Shown: positions 45,653-53,659 of the stretch, piece by piece
Layout: every line of letters begins with the position of its first letter
Position numbering within the stretch: the first letter of the stretch is position 1
NCBI GenBank assembly: GCA_017471825.1
Contig: JAFURQ010000033.1
Span: 1 to 64,000 of the forward strand
Source: Clostridia bacterium
GTDB lineage: Bacteria; Bacillota; Clostridia; Oscillospirales; CAG-272
Reading direction: 5' to 3'
Length of the DNA stretch: 64,000 nt
The notes under the pieces: generated by a model
Databases searched by the model: none
What the model saw: the letters and a program-made list of their open reading frames with translations, nothing else
What the model was told of the DNA's origin: nothing
Program-made: the position numbers and the translations under genes

Positions 45653-46513
45653 TCAATTGTCGGCCTTGTTTTGACCGGGCTTTATCAGTTTTTGAACGAG
45701 AAATTTGCGAAGAGTGTCTACGGTGTAGTTACGGGTAAGCGTGCATTCGTATGCCACGGAGATGATTCCCGTTTCCTCAGATACGATTATTATGATTGCA
45801 TCGCTTATTTCACTCATACCGATAGCGGCTCTGTGGCGCGTACCAAGATCGCCGTCGATGTCGGTTCTCCTGGTGTTCGGGAGCACGCAGCCCGCGGCGG
45901 CAATTCTGGTATCGTCGATAATTACCGCGCCGTCGTGCAACGGTGCCTTATCGTAAAATAGATTGCGGAGCAGAAATGATGATACCTCGGAATCAATTTT
46001 TACACCCGTCTGAGTCACCTCGTCAAGCGTAGTGGTGCGTGATATAACAATAAGTGCTCCGGTTTTGGAGCGAGAGAGCTCTCCAATCGCCGCAGATACG
46101 TTGTCGATAACAGAATAATACATCTGATGCTTCTTTTTTTGATCGCCAAAGCTCATAAGACCGCTTATAGAGCCCGATCCCACACGCTCGAGAGCATCGC
46201 GTATTTCCGGCTGAAAGATAATAACAATAGCAATAACGCCAACCTTGAAAAGCTGTGAAAATACATAGTGCGTAGCATCAAGATTGAACGCATACGCAAC
46301 AGTTGTAATGAGAAGCACAACTGCGATGCCTATAAGCAATACCCCGGCCTTTCTTCCGCGAATAAAACGGAAGAGGAAAAAGAGGATAACCGAAAGAAGA
46401 AGAATGTCTATTGCGTCAATAAACGAAAAGCCTGAAAAGCATTTCTGTGCGGATTCTCCGATTTTTGAGAAAAATTCTCCGATGCTGGAGTGTATATATG
46501 AAATGTTAAACAT
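45653..46513 (-). CDS. cdaA: Diadenylate cyclase CdaA
   Basis: 286 residues. Three membrane helices (about 34-50, 56-76, 85-100) precede the DAC domain, with the DGA motif at 194-196 (PLHDGAVIID) and the RHR motif at 226-228 (GTRHRAAIG). It makes c-di-AMP from two ATP. It is the first gene of its operon. The usual next genes, cdaR and glmM, are missing; a small membrane protein follows instead. gdpP, which breaks down c-di-AMP, is at 61 kb. Confidence 0.96.
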   Translation of the reverse strand: MFNISYIHSSIGEFFSKIGESAQKCFSGFSFIDAIDILLLSVILFFLFRFIRGRKAGVLLIGIAVVLLITTVAYAFNLDATHYVFSQLFKVGVIAIVIIFQPEIRDALERVGSGSISGLMSFGDQKKKHQMYYSVIDNVSAAIGELSRSKTGALIVISRTTTLDEVTQTGVKIDSEVSSFLLRNLFYDKAPLHDGAVIIDDTRIAAAGCVLPNTRRTDIDGDLGTRHRAAIGMSEISDAIIIIVSEETGIISVAYECTLTRNYTVDTLRKFLVQKLIKPGQNKADN

Positions 46514-46714: not shown

Positions 46715-47410
46715 ATGGAAGAAAATATACAAAACATCAGCCCTAAAAGGCTATGCCGCTTTTTGCAATCCACGTTCCTATTTAAGGACATTTCGAGCGA
46801 AAAGGTAAGTTTACTTTTGAGCTGCGTTACCCCACGGCTTCTCGCCTTTTCTGCAGACGAGATTATATTTTCGCCTGGACAGTTTGACAAGAAAATGGGC
46901 TTTGTTTTTTCCGGAGAATGTGTCGTGGAAAGAGTAAAAAGCGGACATCCCTCACTACTTCTCAATACACTCGGTGAGTTTGATTCCTTCGGCGTTTTGA
47001 CGTTATTCTCTGCCGAAGAAAAATATCCTACTTCTGTTAGGACAAAGCGGGCATCCACGATATTGTTTTTTGAACGGGGGGATGTGATGACCTTGATTGA
47101 AAAGGAATCGCAGATCGCTATAAATCTACTTGAGTTCATGGGTGGTCGTATAAGCTTTCTTAACGCGAAGATTGCAACATTTTCAGGCGATAATGTTGAG
47201 CAGAAGGTTGTTTCGTATTTAATAGAACTCCAATGCTCCTTGGGCAATCGCTTTAAATTTAACTGTAAAAAAGCGTCCGAGGAGCTCAACATCGGCCGTG
47301 CCTCGTTATACCGCATTCTTTCATCCCTGTCCGATGAAGGGCTCATTACATTTGAAAACAAAATAATTTATATAAACAACCCCGAAGGGTTGGAAAGGAA
47401 ACTAAAATGA
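46715..47410 (+). CDS. Crp/Fnr-family transcriptional regulator
   Basis: 231 residues. A cyclic-nucleotide-binding-like beta barrel (about 20-130) includes IFSPGQFDKKMGFVFSGEC. It is followed by a dimer helix and a winged helix-turn-helix (about 175-225; KKASEELNIGRASLYRILSSL). There is no N-terminal cysteine cluster, so it is not an iron-sulfur Fnr. The ligand is unknown. It overlaps the next gene by four bases, tying control to the importer genes. GGAGA lies upstream. Confidence 0.92.
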   Translation: MEENIQNISPKRLCRFLQSTFLFKDISSEKVSLLLSCVTPRLLAFSADEIIFSPGQFDKKMGFVFSGECVVERVKSGHPSLLLNTLGEFDSFGVLTLFSAEEKYPTSVRTKRASTILFFERGDVMTLIEKESQIAINLLEFMGGRISFLNAKIATFSGDNVEQKVVSYLIELQCSLGNRFKFNCKKASEELNIGRASLYRILSSLSDEGLITFENKIIYINNPEGLERKLK

Positions 47411-48411
47411 AAAAACTATTGGCAATTTTACTCACTCTCACCACTCTGCTCTTCTCCCTTGCGGCATGTCAGGATAACAATTCTGATGATCCTACGCCCG
47501 AAATCAATCTTGTTTCGGAAGCGGATCACGATGCCGTTGTTGCAAAGATGCTGACCGGAGAAATAGAGGTTGCGGTTCTTCCCGAGCCGAAGGCTACCGT
47601 TGCGGTTCTTAATGCAAAGCAAAACGGACATAGCTACTCTGTTAAGCTCAACATTTCAAACGAATGGTCGAGCGTATCAGAAAATGAGCTTGCTATGGGA
47701 TGCATAGCTGTCAGAAACGATTTTATTACTTCCTACGAGGCATCTCTTGTTGATTTCCTCGCAGAATACAAGGCTTCCATTGAATATATCGGCAACAAAA
47801 GCAATGCGGAGTCCTCTGCACAAATGATTGTAGATGCCGGTGTTTTGCCGAAGCTTCCCGTCGCGAAATCAGCCCTCAACAATCTCTACGGCGCAATCGT
47901 ATATCAGGACGGTGCCGAAATGAAGGCTACACTTAAGGACTTTTACTCTGCTATATCACTTACACAGCCTGCCGATGCATTTTACTATATTCCCGATAGT
48001 ACCGCTCAAAATACAGTTGACAGAAAGATAGTTATAGGTATAATGAACGGTCCCACAGGTATGGGCATGGCGAAGCTGATATCTGATTACGGAAAAGAAA
48101 ACGATAAATACGAATTTGTTATGTATTCCGACCCTTCTCTTGCAACTGCCGATCTTAACAATGGTGAAATTGATATGGCGTGTCTTCCCACCAACACGGT
48201 CGCAAATCTTGCAAACAAGGGCTCACAGATATCCGTAGCGTCTATTAACTGTCTCGGTTCGCTTTACGTGGTTGCGAAAGACGGTATAGAAATCAACTCC
48301 GTTGCAGACCTTTGCGGCAAGAATGTTTATTACGGCGTTCCAAATTCCACAACTGCTCCGATATTGCGTTATATTTTCGGTAAGCACAATATAGCTACAA
48401 AGGAATCCTGA
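47407..48411 (+). CDS. ABC substrate-binding lipoprotein with swapped halves
   Basis: 334 residues. A signal peptide with lipobox ends at Cys21 (FSLAAC). The rest carries both halves of an SsuA/NMT1-like binding protein in reversed order. Residues about 32-196 match the usual second half (AVLPEPKATVAVLNAKQN, then GAEMKATLKDF and ADAFYY, which is normally the C-terminus). Residues about 204-331 match the usual first half (IVIGIMNGPTGMGMAKL, NGEIDMACLPTNTVANL, GSLYVVAKDG). Joining the end to residue 32 restores the normal order. Permease and ATPase follow, so this is a NitT/TauT-type importer of unknown substrate. Confidence 0.85.
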   Translation: MKKLLAILLTLTTLLFSLAACQDNNSDDPTPEINLVSEADHDAVVAKMLTGEIEVAVLPEPKATVAVLNAKQNGHSYSVKLNISNEWSSVSENELAMGCIAVRNDFITSYEASLVDFLAEYKASIEYIGNKSNAESSAQMIVDAGVLPKLPVAKSALNNLYGAIVYQDGAEMKATLKDFYSAISLTQPADAFYYIPDSTAQNTVDRKIVIGIMNGPTGMGMAKLISDYGKENDKYEFVMYSDPSLATADLNNGEIDMACLPTNTVANLANKGSQISVASINCLGSLYVVAKDGIEINSVADLCGKNVYYGVPNSTTAPILRYIFGKHNIATKES

Positions 48412-49184
48412 TGCAAGATAACGCCAAAAACAGCAAAAAAGGATTTGTTTTACGTCTTATCATAACGGCCGTATCCATACTGCTCTGGCTTGCTATTTGG
48501 GAGCTTGCAGCATATTTAATAGGATATGATTTCATATTTGTCGGCCCGATTAAAACCTTCACCGCTCTTTGTACCCTTGCAGGAACATTAAGCTTCTGGC
48601 AAACGGTTGCTCTATCTGTTTTGCGCATTTTAGCCGGGCTTGCGCTTGGAATTTTACTTGGTGTTACATTAGCCATACTGTGCCGCGCATTGCCGATCAT
48701 AATAACGTTTGTATCTGTTGGTATGACTGTAATTAGATCTACTCCGGTTGCCTCAATTATAATGATTCTATGGATCATTGTCGGCAGCACGAGTGTACCG
48801 GTTGTGATTGCGGTACTTATGGTTGCGCCGATTATATGGCAAAATCTTATGGACGGATACGAATCCATTGATAAGGATTTACGCGAAGTGACGTTGGTTT
48901 TCAATTTTTCCAAGCGAAAGGCTTTTGTTCATTTGACTCTCCCCACACTTTTGAGATACTTTGTTCCCGCCGCCTTAACATCGGTTGGACTCGCATGGAA
49001 ATCGGGTATAGCCGCTGAAATAATCGCCTATACGAAAAATTCTATCGGAAAAAACGTGTTAGATGCAAAATCTTATTTTGAAGCTGACGTTCTTCTCGCT
49101 TGGACAGTTGCGGTCATCGTCATCAGCTTGGTATTTGAATACCTTGTGAAATATCTTGTCAAAAGGAGTAAATTATGGGATTGA
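48411..49184 (+). CDS. ABC transporter permease (NitT/TauT type)
   Basis: 257 residues with six membrane helices. The coupling loop motif lies in NLMDGYESIDKDLREVTLVF, matching the EAA-like loop of SsuC/TauC permeases. It starts on the last base of the binding-protein gene and overlaps the ATPase gene by ten bases, so the three are one translational block. The permease moves the unknown substrate inward. Confidence 0.93.
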   Translation: MQDNAKNSKKGFVLRLIITAVSILLWLAIWELAAYLIGYDFIFVGPIKTFTALCTLAGTLSFWQTVALSVLRILAGLALGILLGVTLAILCRALPIIITFVSVGMTVIRSTPVASIIMILWIIVGSTSVPVVIAVLMVAPIIWQNLMDGYESIDKDLREVTLVFNFSKRKAFVHLTLPTLLRYFVPAALTSVGLAWKSGIAAEIIAYTKNSIGKNVLDAKSYFEADVLLAWTVAVIVISLVFEYLVKYLVKRSKLWD

Positions 49185-49789
49185 AATTAAAAAGCATAAA
49201 AAAATCCTTTGACAGCAAGACGGTTATTGATGATTTTTCTTACTCATTTCCTGACACAGGGCTTTATATAGTCAAAGGTGATAGCGGAAGCGGAAAAACA
49301 ACTCTGCTTCGAATTATATCCGGAATTGACGATTTATTTGACGGTGAATTAATCGGGGGAGGAATCCAAAACTCCTCATTCTGCTTTCAAGAATACCGAC
49401 TTTTTCCGCATCTTTCGGCACTTGAAAACGTGACGGTTGCATCCTTTGATAATGCCACAGATGAGGACAGGGCTCTGGCATTACAATTGCTTTTGCGCTT
49501 AAATTTTTCTACCGAGGATACCACCCTTCGCCCTGCACAGCTCTCAGGCGGAATGAAGCAGCGCGTTTCCTTCGCAAGAGCAATTCTAAAAAAATCCCCT
49601 GTTCTTTTGCTCGACGAGCCGACCAAAGAGGTTGATTCTTCTATTGCAAAAATTATGCATGAAATTATAACCGAGGAAGCTGCCACAAGGACGGTAATAC
49701 TTGTTACGCACAAGAATGAGGATATTTCTGCGCTGAACGGAGAGATAATTTTTCTTTCTCCTTCTGAAAAGAAGCAGGACTCGAAATAA
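49175..49789 (+). CDS. ABC transporter ATP-binding protein
   Basis: 204 residues. Walker A is GDSGSGKT (35-42), the Q-loop is in CFQEYRLFPH, the signature is LSGGMKQR and Walker B is VLLLDEPTKEVD, then the H-loop VTHKNED. At 204 residues it is shorter than SsuB/TauB (about 250) but has every motif. It energises import with the permease upstream. Confidence 0.94.
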   Translation: MGLKLKSIKKSFDSKTVIDDFSYSFPDTGLYIVKGDSGSGKTTLLRIISGIDDLFDGELIGGGIQNSSFCFQEYRLFPHLSALENVTVASFDNATDEDRALALQLLLRLNFSTEDTTLRPAQLSGGMKQRVSFARAILKKSPVLLLDEPTKEVDSSIAKIMHEIITEEAATRTVILVTHKNEDISALNGEIIFLSPSEKKQDSK

Positions 49790-49992: not shown

Positions 49993-51429
49993 TTGGAACA
50001 ATACAGAAAAACTGAAATCTGTGGATTGCCTACCGTAGAGGAGCTTCGTGCTACTCTTGCAGACGGCTCAGGCAGTGAGGCGCGTGCTAACCTTGCATTG
50101 CTTTTTGATAGAGACACATTCGTAGAAACCAATGCGTACGTTAAGCGTGCTATCACCGACTTTATTACCACAGAGCAAGCAAACGAATTTGAAGGAGTCA
50201 TCACCGGTTACGGTGCAATTGACGGCAAGCTTGTGTTTGCTTTCGTTGAGGATTCTTCAAGAATGGGCGGCGTTATAGATGAGCGCCACGCTAAAAAAAT
50301 TGCTGATCTTTATAGCCTTGCTATTAAGAACGGCGCGCCGGTTATCGGTATTTTTAATTCAAACGGTACCGATATTTTCCAGGGTACTGCAGGACTTGCG
50401 GCGTACGGAAGAATAATGAACTCGGTTATTTCTGCCTCCGGAGCTATTCCGCAAATAGCATACGTATCAGGCAAGTGCATCGGCTGTGCAGCCGCAATTG
50501 CAGCTATGTTCGATATTGTTGTTAAGGATGCCTCGGCATCATTCTACGTTTCTTCTCCCAATCTTACAGGAAACAATGACGCTCAGAACTGCGTGGTTGC
50601 TTTCAGCGGTGAAGCTGCACAGTGTGCCGGCTACATACGCGATGTAATATCCTTTATTCCTGACAATTCAGCAACTGGAGCGATCGTTTCCACCTGTGCG
50701 GACAACCTCAACAGAAAGCTCGGTGAGCTTGATTTCTCCGGTGATGCTCTTGCTGCAATATCGGTAATTGCCGACAATGGCGTATATTATGAGCTTGCCC
50801 GTGATTACGCCCCTGAGCTTTCGACAGTATTTTCTACCGTTGGCGGTGTAAGATGCGGAATCCTCGCATCCTCTTACTCGGTTAACGAGGGGCGTCTCTC
50901 TGCCGCTTCGGCAAGAAAGGCTGCTAAATTTATTAGCTTTTGCAATGCCTTCTCCATTCCTCTCGTTACCCTTGTTGATTCATACGGTCTTGTAATTGAT
51001 TCGGAAAACGAGTCTGCTTATTTCTCGTCAGAGCTTGCAAGGCTTGCGATGGCATATTCTACCGCAGACGTTCCCAAGGTAACCGTGATTATCGGTCATG
51101 CAATCGGTGCGTCCTTCGTCCTTCTCGGCTCCAAGGCGCTTGGTGCCGACCTTGTATACGCTACCAACGATTCCGAAATCGGTGCGCTTCCCGCTGATAG
51201 CGGTGTTGCGTTTGCTTGGAATTCTAACATTTCGCTTGAAAATCCGAGAGAGGCTCTTGTTGAGCGTTGGAAGTCCACCGTTTCCTCCCCTGCTGTTGCC
51301 GCCGCAAGCGGTGAAATAGACGATATAATCAGCGTTAATGAGCTTCGCGCACGTATTTGCTCTGCCCTGCTTATGCTCGTTGCAAAGGGCAAGGTTGAGC
51401 CAAGCGATCGCAAGATACTTCCGCTTTAA
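49993..51429 (+). CDS. Carboxyltransferase alpha subunit (MmdA-like), divergent
   Basis: 478 residues, two crotonase-like halves as in biotin-dependent carboxyltransferases. The N-half has LFDRDTFVETNAYVKR and GVITGYGAIDGKLVFAF; the C-half has FISFCNAFSIPLVTLVDSYG and VIIGHAIGASFVLLGSKALG. It is shorter than typical MmdA (about 510) and lacks the GKLTARERI start. The acyl-CoA substrate could be methylmalonyl-, glutaconyl- or malonyl-CoA. It starts with TTG; a GGGA close to it and a stronger site beyond a hairpin are both possible. Confidence 0.82.
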   Translation: MEQYRKTEICGLPTVEELRATLADGSGSEARANLALLFDRDTFVETNAYVKRAITDFITTEQANEFEGVITGYGAIDGKLVFAFVEDSSRMGGVIDERHAKKIADLYSLAIKNGAPVIGIFNSNGTDIFQGTAGLAAYGRIMNSVISASGAIPQIAYVSGKCIGCAAAIAAMFDIVVKDASASFYVSSPNLTGNNDAQNCVVAFSGEAAQCAGYIRDVISFIPDNSATGAIVSTCADNLNRKLGELDFSGDALAAISVIADNGVYYELARDYAPELSTVFSTVGGVRCGILASSYSVNEGRLSAASARKAAKFISFCNAFSIPLVTLVDSYGLVIDSENESAYFSSELARLAMAYSTADVPKVTVIIGHAIGASFVLLGSKALGADLVYATNDSEIGALPADSGVAFAWNSNISLENPREALVERWKSTVSSPAVAAASGEIDDIISVNELRARICSALLMLVAKGKVEPSDRKILPL

Positions 51430-51442
51430 TTCGGAGGTGACT

Positions 51443-51796
51443 ATGAATAGTATGTTCATTTCAGCCGCTATGGATTATTCAAAGCCCATCGAGGGATTTG
51501 CAGATACGCTTTCCTTTGGCGGTATGATGGTTTTGCTTGGACTTGCAACTGTATTTGCGGTTCTTATTATCATAATGCTCGCATTGATTCTCTTTAAGTA
51601 TTTCTTCTCTGATTTAGCTTCGAAGGGCTCACAAAAGGAAGACAATAACAGCGCTACCGCTCCTGTTATGACTGTCGCCCCCACGGTAGCTAGCCAAGAT
51701 GAAGAGATTGTGGCAGTTATTGCTGCCGCGATTGCAATGGCAGAAAGCGAAGAAAGCGGCGTTAAATTTAAAGTTGTCTCATTCAAACGCATATAA
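51443..51796 (+). CDS. Sodium pump decarboxylase gamma subunit, OadG family
   Basis: 117 residues from ATG 51443 with GGAGG eight bases upstream. One membrane helix (about 27-51; MVLLGLATVFAVLIIIMLAL) is followed by a polar stretch and a C-terminal helix EIVAVIAAAIAMAESEE. This is the OadG/MmdD layout, which holds the biotin and carboxyltransferase subunits to the membrane beta subunit. Confidence 0.9.
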   Translation: MNSMFISAAMDYSKPIEGFADTLSFGGMMVLLGLATVFAVLIIIMLALILFKYFFSDLASKGSQKEDNNSATAPVMTVAPTVASQDEEIVAVIAAAIAMAESEESGVKFKVVSFKRI

Positions 51797-51815
51797 ATGA
51801 AAGGAATAATTACTT

Positions 51816-52238
51816 ATGAAAAGATACAATATTACCGTTAACGGTCACAATTACGACGTTATAGTTGAAGAGGTTGATGCAAATGCTTCGTATAGCGCTC
51901 CCGTTGCTCCTGTGGTTACTCCCGTAGCACCTGCGGTTCCGGCAACTGCTCCTGTTGCTCCCGCTGTTGCACCCGCGCCTGCGGCTGCTCCCGTAGCTGC
52001 TCCCGCAACCTCCGGCTCACAGGGGGCTACCAAGGTTACCGCGCCCATGCCAGGAACCATTCTCGATGTTAAGGTAACCGTTGGCCAGTCTGTTAAGAAG
52101 GGTGACGTTATATGTGTGCTTGAAGCAATGAAGATGGAAAACGACATCCCCGCTCCGTGTGACGGAACCGTTGCTTCCGTTAACGTTCAGAAGGGCGCAT
52201 CCGTTTCTGCAAACGACATTATCGCAACTCTTAACTAA
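51816..52238 (+). CDS. Biotin carboxyl carrier subunit
   Basis: 140 residues. A short N-terminal beta part is followed by an Ala/Pro/Val-rich flexible linker (29-68) and a biotinyl domain (72-140) with the biotin-accepting Lys106 in EAMKMEN. It carries CO2 from the carboxyltransferase to the membrane decarboxylase. AAAGGAA lies upstream. It is 19 bases after the gamma-subunit gene. Confidence 0.94.
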
Positions 52239-52258
52239 GAAAGATAAAGGTACCAATA

Positions 52259-53659
52259 ATGTTAGATGCTATTAAAAACTTTCTTGGCACCACGGGTATA
52301 GCCAAGTTGTTTGCGGAATCTAATTGGTGGCAATATCTTGTAATGTATCTGATAATCGGAGTTCTCTTCTATCTTGCTATTGTTAAAAAGTTTGAGCCAC
52401 TCCTTCTCTTACCCATTGCATTTGGTATGCTACTCGCAAATCTTCCCGGTGCCGAGCTTATACATCTTGATTATTTCTTCGACGACTATTACATAGCGGT
52501 TGAAAACGGAGAGCTTGTAGGAATGTTAGCTTCTGATTTTAAATTATTCCTTGCTAATATTCCTGAGCAGCTTTACACGTTGTCAAACGATTCTCTGACC
52601 TTTAATCTTTCAGGCCTCGACGAGCAAAACCTTGATACATTCAATTTCCTTTTTGATCAGTATCTTGACGGTTCAGCATACATTGAGGACGGTGCCGTTC
52701 ATATCAAGATGACAACAATGGTCGGTGAGGTTATTAACCACGGCGGTCTTGTTGATATACTCTATCTTGGCGTAAAGTTTGGCGTTTATCCCTCGCTCAT
52801 ATTTATGGGTGTAGGTGCCATGACCGACTTCTCGCCGCTGATTGCAAACCCGAAATCTTTGCTTATGGGTGCGGGAACACAGCTCGGTGTATTTGCCGCA
52901 TTCTTCTTTGCTCTCTTTCTCGGCTTCTCACCGATGGAAGCCGGCGCAATCGGCATTATCGGCGGAGCTGACGGCCCCACAGCCATACTTGTAACCAAAA
53001 CGCTTGCTCCTCATTTGCTCGGTGCGATAGCAATTGCCGCATATTCGTATATGGCACTTATTCCGATAATTCAACCACCGTTTATGAAGCTTTTAACCAC
53101 GAAGGAAGAGCGCAGCATTAAGATGAACAACTTGCGCCCTGTATCCAAGCTTGAAAAGATTGTATTCCCTATCCTTGTTACGGCAATCGTATCGTTTATA
53201 GTTCCCGATGCTGCGGCACTTGTAGGCTTCCTGATGTTAGGCAACCTGTTCAATGTTTCCGGAGTAACAGAACGACTCTCTAAAACCTCGCAAAACGAGC
53301 TCTGCAATATCATTACGATTTGCCTTGGAGTTTCTGTTGGAGCTACTGCCAATGCAGAAAACTTCCTCAAGCCTCAAACGATCTACATTATATTGCTCGG
53401 CCTTTCCGCGTTTATACTTTCTACCTGCGGTGGACTTATCGTAGGAAAAATCATGTGCAAGCTTACCGGTGGAAAAATCAATCCCCTTATCGGTGCTGCG
53501 GGCGTTTCTGCAGTTCCTATGGCGGCGAGAGTGGCACAGGATATGGGACGCAAGGAGGATCCCTCTAACTTCCTTCTTATGCACGCTATGGGCCCCAACG
53601 TTGCCGGAGTTATCGGCTCTGCTGTTGCCGCGGGCGTATTCCTTAGCTTTTTCCAATAA
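52259..53659 (+). CDS. oadB: Sodium-translocating decarboxylase beta subunit
   Basis: 466 residues with about eleven membrane helices. Family motifs: FEPLLLLPIAFGMLLANLPG, FMGVGAMTDFSPLIANP, and GGADGPTAILVT with the sodium-site aspartate. The loop at about 75-165 is an acidic insert larger than in OadB of Klebsiella. It decarboxylates carboxybiotin and drives sodium out. It can serve either of the two carboxyltransferases of this operon. Confidence 0.93.
   Translation: MLDAIKNFLGTTGIAKLFAESNWWQYLVMYLIIGVLFYLAIVKKFEPLLLLPIAFGMLLANLPGAELIHLDYFFDDYYIAVENGELVGMLASDFKLFLANIPEQLYTLSNDSLTFNLSGLDEQNLDTFNFLFDQYLDGSAYIEDGAVHIKMTTMVGEVINHGGLVDILYLGVKFGVYPSLIFMGVGAMTDFSPLIANPKSLLMGAGTQLGVFAAFFFALFLGFSPMEAGAIGIIGGADGPTAILVTKTLAPHLLGAIAIAAYSYMALIPIIQPPFMKLLTTKEERSIKMNNLRPVSKLEKIVFPILVTAIVSFIVPDAAALVGFLMLGNLFNVSGVTERLSKTSQNELCNIITICLGVSVGATANAENFLKPQTIYIILLGLSAFILSTCGGLIVGKIMCKLTGGKINPLIGAAGVSAVPMAARVAQDMGRKEDPSNFLLMHAMGPNVAGVIGSAVAAGVFLSFFQ

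Follow-up and report, generated by a model that had tools for sequence, protein, structure and literature searches.

A circularly permuted substrate-binding lipoprotein in a Clostridia bacterium and the repeated changes of segment order implied within its family

The question raised by this locus is how a binding-protein gene came to encode its segments in rotated order. The gene lies in a stretch of 64,000 nucleotides (the window; contig JAFURQ010000033.1 of assembly GCA_017471825.1, a Clostridia bacterium), where an open reading frame (ORF) at 47407-48411 (+) encodes 334 amino acids, a signal peptide followed by a rotated arrangement of the segments that make up an SsuA/NMT1-like substrate-binding protein (SBP). 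An earlier note on this DNA had read the swapped halves as a circular permutation. We demonstrate that the window SBP is indeed circularly permuted relative to the canonical SsuA/NMT1-like lipoprotein found in the same operon slot, and that its order is shared by a large group of relatives. The fuller reading, which we hold with considerable confidence, is that this permuted SBP would adopt a two-lobed fold and serve the adjacent permease, that segment order has changed at least nine times at two loops, likely by duplication, and that lobe 2 has probably taken over the lipid anchor from lobe 1.

The layout of the window SBP can be followed segment by segment. The signal peptide, which had been thought to be kept and indeed is, ends in a lipobox recognized from the sequence (47407-47469 (+); LAAC, ending in the cysteine at residue 21), the mark of a bacterial SBP lipoprotein. 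An N-terminal tether (residues 22-31; 47470-47499 (+)) would connect the lipid anchor to a new N-terminus, presumably in lobe 2. The C-terminal half of the family then comes first, from EINLVSE at residue 32 to ADAFYY at 189-194, and consists of segment A1 (residues 32-72, profile positions about 126-164; 47500-47622 (+)), with strand, helix, strand (PEPK) and helix; the loop KQNGH (residues 72-76 region; 47620-47634 (+)), the place at which a second class of relatives is cut; and segment A2 (residues 76-194; 47632-47988 (+)), the canonical C-terminal part ending in ADAFYY. A 12-residue linker (195-206; 47989-48024 (+)) leads from the old C-terminus to the old N-terminus, and segment B (residues 207-331; 48025-48399 (+)), the canonical N-terminal part, begins with KIVIGIMNGPTGMGM at residue 207 and runs from GPTGMGM to FGKHNI, the protein ending in FGKHNIATKES. 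This order, A1-A2-linker-B, is referred to below as type 1.

Permutation-aware alignment and structure prediction were among the checks that the earlier note had proposed. In the order encoded, 168 residues of the window SBP align with the canonical homologue P0056; once rotated, 291 residues align at 64.9% identity. Against a doubled canonical profile the protein gives one stretch, positions 126-415 (446 bits), a rotation beginning at position 126 of 289. The seams are clean, as had been claimed. Both parts are therefore homologous and rotated, and the reference is covered once, as circular permutation demands. Predicted secondary structure of the rotated and canonical proteins agrees at 96.6%, and an ordinary two-lobed fold is predicted by a model with a pLDDT of 91.6, falling under 50 at residues 22-26. 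Pfam matches to the second segment exceed their cut-offs for PF12974 (Phosphonate-bd; 31.1 bits, cut-off 27) and PF09084 (NMT1; 21.8 bits, cut-off 20.5), the first part has sub-cut-off matches to the C-terminal parts of PF02621 and PF13379, and all rows up to an E-value of 1 belong to NMT1, phosphonate and menaquinone-type families. The score for the SsuA family of NCBIfam, TIGR01728, is 28.1 bits against a curated cut-off of 163.5; judged by sequence, the window SBP resembles the SsuA fold and is not filed as SsuA. A canonical homologue matches SsuA/TauA/NrtA-type structures; together with the Pfam rows, among which no Type I family appears, this suggests, short of proof, that the fold is not the Type I sugar-binding one. 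A sequential fold search with the permutant returns middling matches, as expected of a rotated chain; sequential structure searches mis-rank circularly permuted proteins. From SsuA/TauA/NMT1-like SBPs, and from 3hn0 (Parabacteroides BDI_1369), the window SBP differs in segment order and presumably in the position of its anchor.

The order is not peculiar to this gene. The best 120 homologues divide into 58 with swapped segments, a figure that counts the window SBP and one fragment, and 62 with canonical order, which answers the earlier suggestion to look for it in relatives. A doubled-profile classification of 240 homologues, taken as the top 120 of 1821 hits in one search and the top 120 of 4281 in another, gave 166 canonical proteins, 57 of type 1 plus one fragment, and 16 of a second permuted order, type 2. 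Type 1 proteins share the window's cut and start near profile position 126; type 2 proteins are cut about 38 residues further on and start at about 159-172, mostly 162-167. No other cut site occurs among these 240 classified homologues or among the ORFs of the loci. Chance is excluded as the cause of the swapped order, because 56 further protein clusters and one fragment show this rotation. With 57 clusters of this order, the window's included, the gene is no lone oddity. C21 is invariant across the alignment of the 57 type 1 proteins. Among aligned positions, 76 are conserved at 95% or more in type 1; canonical proteins have the same consensus residue at 75 of these 76, and 59 are also conserved at that level in the canonical set (22.7 expected).

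These counts bear on whether an assembly artefact, in which a tandem or full-length gene had collapsed to a seemingly swapped ORF, could account for the locus. The assemblies are drafts, and the window's own genome, in which the window SBP is the single match, comprises 33 contigs at 89.8% completeness and 5.23% contamination. Against such a collapse, the same cut recurs in 57 protein clusters and a fragment, none of the three junctions (tether, linker and stop) is a repeat, direct repeats at the locus reach 21 nt at most, and the type 2 order is common to four genomes of genus g55 and to two of g50. We regard an artefact as scarcely credible.

Within genomes, type 2 was met in G030 and G088, in whole-genome searches of the same genus. 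A draw of 395 genomes of the family, 213 of them matched at 1e-45, contained 12 permuted genomes among the matches listed (10 type 2, 2 type 1), and G030, from the genus search, adds one more. In an order-wide draw of 394 genomes, 200 of them matched at 1e-35, 3 of 29 genomes of the same family and 0 of 171 of other families were permuted among the matches listed. Matches spanning both segments rank high, so unlisted permutants in these draws are unlikely. A Fisher test of 12/213 versus 0/171 mixes E-value limits, and the like-for-like comparison is 3/29 versus 0/171. The permutants are spread over seven scattered genera of the family.

To count changes of order, all sequences were rearranged to canonical order before tree building, and the fragment (P0119) was excluded. 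A FastTree analysis of 295 rows requires eight changes, and an 81-row tree, with rows picked by identity from the 295 and a better model, also requires eight over all three orders. On the 81-row tree, placing all permutants in a single clade is rejected (p = 7.2e-5), as is a single clade of type 1 with G445 counted in (p = 3.9e-5) or of type 2 (p = 3.6e-9). A 66-row tree was built from genome-derived proteins of seven genera of one family, picked for holding permutants (53 canonical, 11 type 2 and 2 type 1 proteins; the partial L025 was excluded, and loci that duplicated another from their genome were dropped). It requires nine changes, 9/9 of them forced by starred branches, with a 5-95% range of 9-9 over 200 bootstrap trees, and each permutant is placed beside canonical proteins from the genus to which it belongs. 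Three of the events fall in g1, two of them type 2 and the third the window's type 1; g42, g50, g51, g54 and g55 have one of type 2 each, and g60 has one of type 1. Approximately unbiased (AU) tests on the 66-row set reject uniting all type 2 proteins and uniting the two of type 1; they also reject uniting the type 2 proteins of g51 and g54, and the two of g1, pairs that were chosen after seeing the tree. At the level of sequence, this implies that the order changed at least nine times in one bacterial family, at two cut sites. Nine gains would be the simplest reading, because the canonical order prevails in the other families of the order.

Several results weigh against this reading. Starred branches of the 81-row tree, the bootstrap of which is unsettled, force only five of seven changes between canonical and permuted order, and a single clade for the main type 1 group is not rejected there (p = 0.4). 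Within the main type 1 clade of that tree nests a canonical protein, P0055, possibly by reversion to canonical order or through a second origin for P0086. The type 1 protein of g60, G445 (L069), falls among type 2 proteins on the 81-row tree, which holds no canonical g60 proteins; with these added, on the 66-row tree, it groups with them. Finally, counts of changes on a tree do not separate gain from reversion. An alternative explanation is that permutation took place once or a few times long ago, with horizontal transfer or reversion producing the present scatter; the seven scattered genera, the canonical protein inside the main type 1 clade and a tree that tallies changes rather than gains would all speak for it. 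Single clades are rejected by the AU tests, however, and for 13/13 permutants the nearest protein is a canonical one of the same genus or a permutant of the same event, with identity to the closest canonical relative reaching 80% (L074 and L102). Comparisons of DNA within a genus, such as that of L074 with L102, show colinear flanks around a rotated interior. In all seven segments, similarity is higher to the best canonical protein of the same genus than to the best permutant from elsewhere in 10 to 13 of 13 cases, although the pools compared differ in size and are largest for g1; transfer followed by gene conversion is disfavoured by this closeness and becomes unlikely. Reversions, moreover, would still count as changes of order, nine in all. 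We consider an ancient origin improbable, and retain recurrent change within genera.

The setting of the gene supports change in place. The operon opens with a Crp/Fnr-like regulator (46715-47410 (+); PF00027 and PF13545 above cut-off), the stop of which overlaps the SBP start, and the SBP stop overlaps the start of an ABC permease (48411-49184 (+); PF00528, 59.7 bits, cut-off 26.4), followed by an ABC ATPase (49175-49789 (+); PF00005, 83.3 bits, cut-off 25). The neighbouring permease and ATPase are intact, as had been stated, and, encoded alongside, they mark the window SBP as the probable binding protein of an ABC importer; we infer that it would pass a small molecule, presumably a nutrient, to the adjacent permease. 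All 13 genome-derived permutants have a Crp-like gene upstream and a permease downstream, with an ATPase match at 11 of the 13 loci (none for L070 and L071). Among canonical locus rows, a permease is found in 58/58 and a Crp-like gene in 48/58, the ten rows with no match being L020, L026, L028, L030, L033-L036, L038 and L039; the 58 rows include some genomes twice, and 20 canonical loci added later are outside the count. Since permutants occupy the same operon slot as canonical genes, the order change most simply occurred in place.

Two composite proteins were seen among canonical-order homologues: P0244 (590 aa) carries the SBP and a BPD_transp_1 permease in one chain, and P0241 (511 aa) has a cNMP-binding (Crp-like) sensor domain in frame with the SBP. 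No helix-turn-helix (HTH) family matches P0241 at E 1e-5, and regulator and SBP may be fused there or the regulator may be frameshifted. Around the operon, a CdaA-like diadenylate cyclase gene (45653-46513 (-); PF02457, PF19293) lies upstream of the regulator and is encoded on the other strand, and downstream, at 49993-53659, are genes for a carboxyltransferase (PF01039), a biotin carrier (PF00364) and a Na+-transporting oxaloacetate decarboxylase of beta type (PF03977).

By what route, then, might the order have changed? The earlier note had suggested a tandem copy followed by loss of the outer halves. In this scheme, the region coding for the mature protein would be duplicated and fused in place; the first part would then be lost in frame, with the signal peptide kept and a new stop gained, leaving the old termini joined by a linker, of 11-14 residues in the genome-derived cases, and a lobe-2 loop as the new termini. 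Linkers of this length bridge the old termini in 13/13 genome-derived permutants. Canonical proteins carry 0-2 residues after the domain in 46 of 53 cases and 4-10 in six, the one remaining value being a numbering artefact; as the canonical tail is mostly 0-2 residues, the greater part of the linker has another source. In g55 the linker is similar to the tether that follows the lipobox in canonical neighbours (SKADSALE versus AKPDSELE), which is suggestive of a linker derived from the old tether. Together, the linker and the kept signal peptide fit the permutation-by-duplication model best, and we consider it the likely route.

That part of the earlier suggestion stands as the likeliest route; the tandem intermediate it would predict did not appear, and the resemblance of linker to tether is modest. 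The latter is driven by one genus, with 85 of 5000 shuffles reaching the observed score in a test that excludes g1, drops the rows with no motif (L017, L027, L028 and L067) and contains one wrong row, L040, for which the motif was picked up in the N-terminal tether instead; the signal is strong in g55, where one event is counted four times, and below the other-genus mean in g60. As for tandem or one-and-a-half-copy intermediates, 0 of 11 long proteins had two domains in a search with an 800-residue query, limited to long proteins and scoring only the 7993 candidates that share most words. Among the wider homologues, the close pair P0124 (type 2) and P0161 (canonical), in which the linker VDSELEIK echoes the tether VDSDLEIK, is a good spot for seeking a recent permutation event.

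Permuted genes look to be under purifying selection, to judge from codon comparisons. The ratio of nonsynonymous to synonymous substitution rates (dN/dS) is 0.068 for two type 2 genes of g55 and 0.094 for two canonical genes, and lies at 0.068-0.149 in the 9 of 14 pairs that gave a value; dS is high, and saturated in the other 5, which tempers the estimate. The window SBP has probably kept both its ligand binding and its docking on the permease, and the earlier view that the protein is likely to work appears right.

The remaining question is why only two loops were used. Each cut opens a loop that leads from a helix into a strand; the helices concerned are 140-150 and 184-194 of P0056, and from the topology of type II SBPs we take both loops to belong to lobe 2. 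The new termini are accordingly predicted in such a loop of lobe 2 and away from the hinge, where the earlier note had expected them. We infer that the canonical lipid anchor hangs on lobe 1 and that of the permutants on the outer end of lobe 2. In the canonical alignment the cuts are no more than about four residues away from peaks 3 and 1 of indel tolerance, whereas hardly any indels occur in the short intervening loop (around 174). The probability that nine events use at most two sites is 2.3e-5 with 10 equal loops, 4e-8 with 25 and 0.012 with 4, figures that assume equal loops and were computed after the data were seen. One tentative reading, to which we give somewhat less than an even chance, is a hotspot: the same operon gene would have been cut and rejoined at least nine times, always at two lobe-2 loops, with parallel moves of the anchor from lobe 1 to lobe 2.

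Recurrent neutral permutation, in which adjacent old termini and two loose loops suffice and no benefit accrues, would explain why the cuts coincide with tolerance peaks 1 and 3, why the conserved residues are retained and why permutants amount to 12 of the 213 matched family genomes, and we place it only just short of an even chance. It sits less well with the other tolerant regions of P0056 (about 282, 252, 305 and 54), which carry no cut in the proteins classified, and with the 0/171 in other families versus 3/29 here among the matches listed. Alternatively, relocation of the anchor from lobe 1 to lobe 2 may itself have been selected, if the geometry of the tether alters permease docking or surface exposure. 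All nine changes falling at two loops of what is presumably the same lobe would suit this idea; the permutants are a minority, however, and we regard it as conceivable, though less likely than not.

Known cases of natural circular permutation are for the most part deep events that happened once and whose course is lost, and a literature search, with coverage lacking most subscription journals, returned no account of an orthologous binding-protein gene that had been permuted more than once. TpMglB-2 (Tp0684) is described as a naturally circularly permuted glucose-binding lipoprotein ('Type Ic') that binds ligand and changes conformation, with a poor match of 13% identity between the permuted parts and acquisition from another gene allowed (PMC4990184). 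It is like the window SBP in being a permuted SBP lipoprotein with ABC transporter genes, clade-wide. It has a Type I/cluster B sugar-binding fold with an N-lobe permutation, whereas the window SBP is NMT1/SsuA-like, 65% identical to a canonical protein after rotation, and belongs to recurrent changes at two cut sites. The permuted GTPases YRG and cpRAS, one placed before the last universal common ancestor (LUCA) and the other early in eukaryotes (PMC2430557), represent two different permutations of one fold but not repeated events in one orthologous operon slot. The permutation-by-duplication model, developed for saposin/swaposin and DNA methyltransferases, predicts intermediates (PMC3320104), and these were not found among the 11 long proteins here.

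Altogether, several events within genera, where the identity to a canonical relative reaches 80%, constitute a replicated natural experiment in this family. Such replicated permutations can inform on the route by which permutations originate, on which loops tolerate new termini and on the effect of moving the tether on transport.
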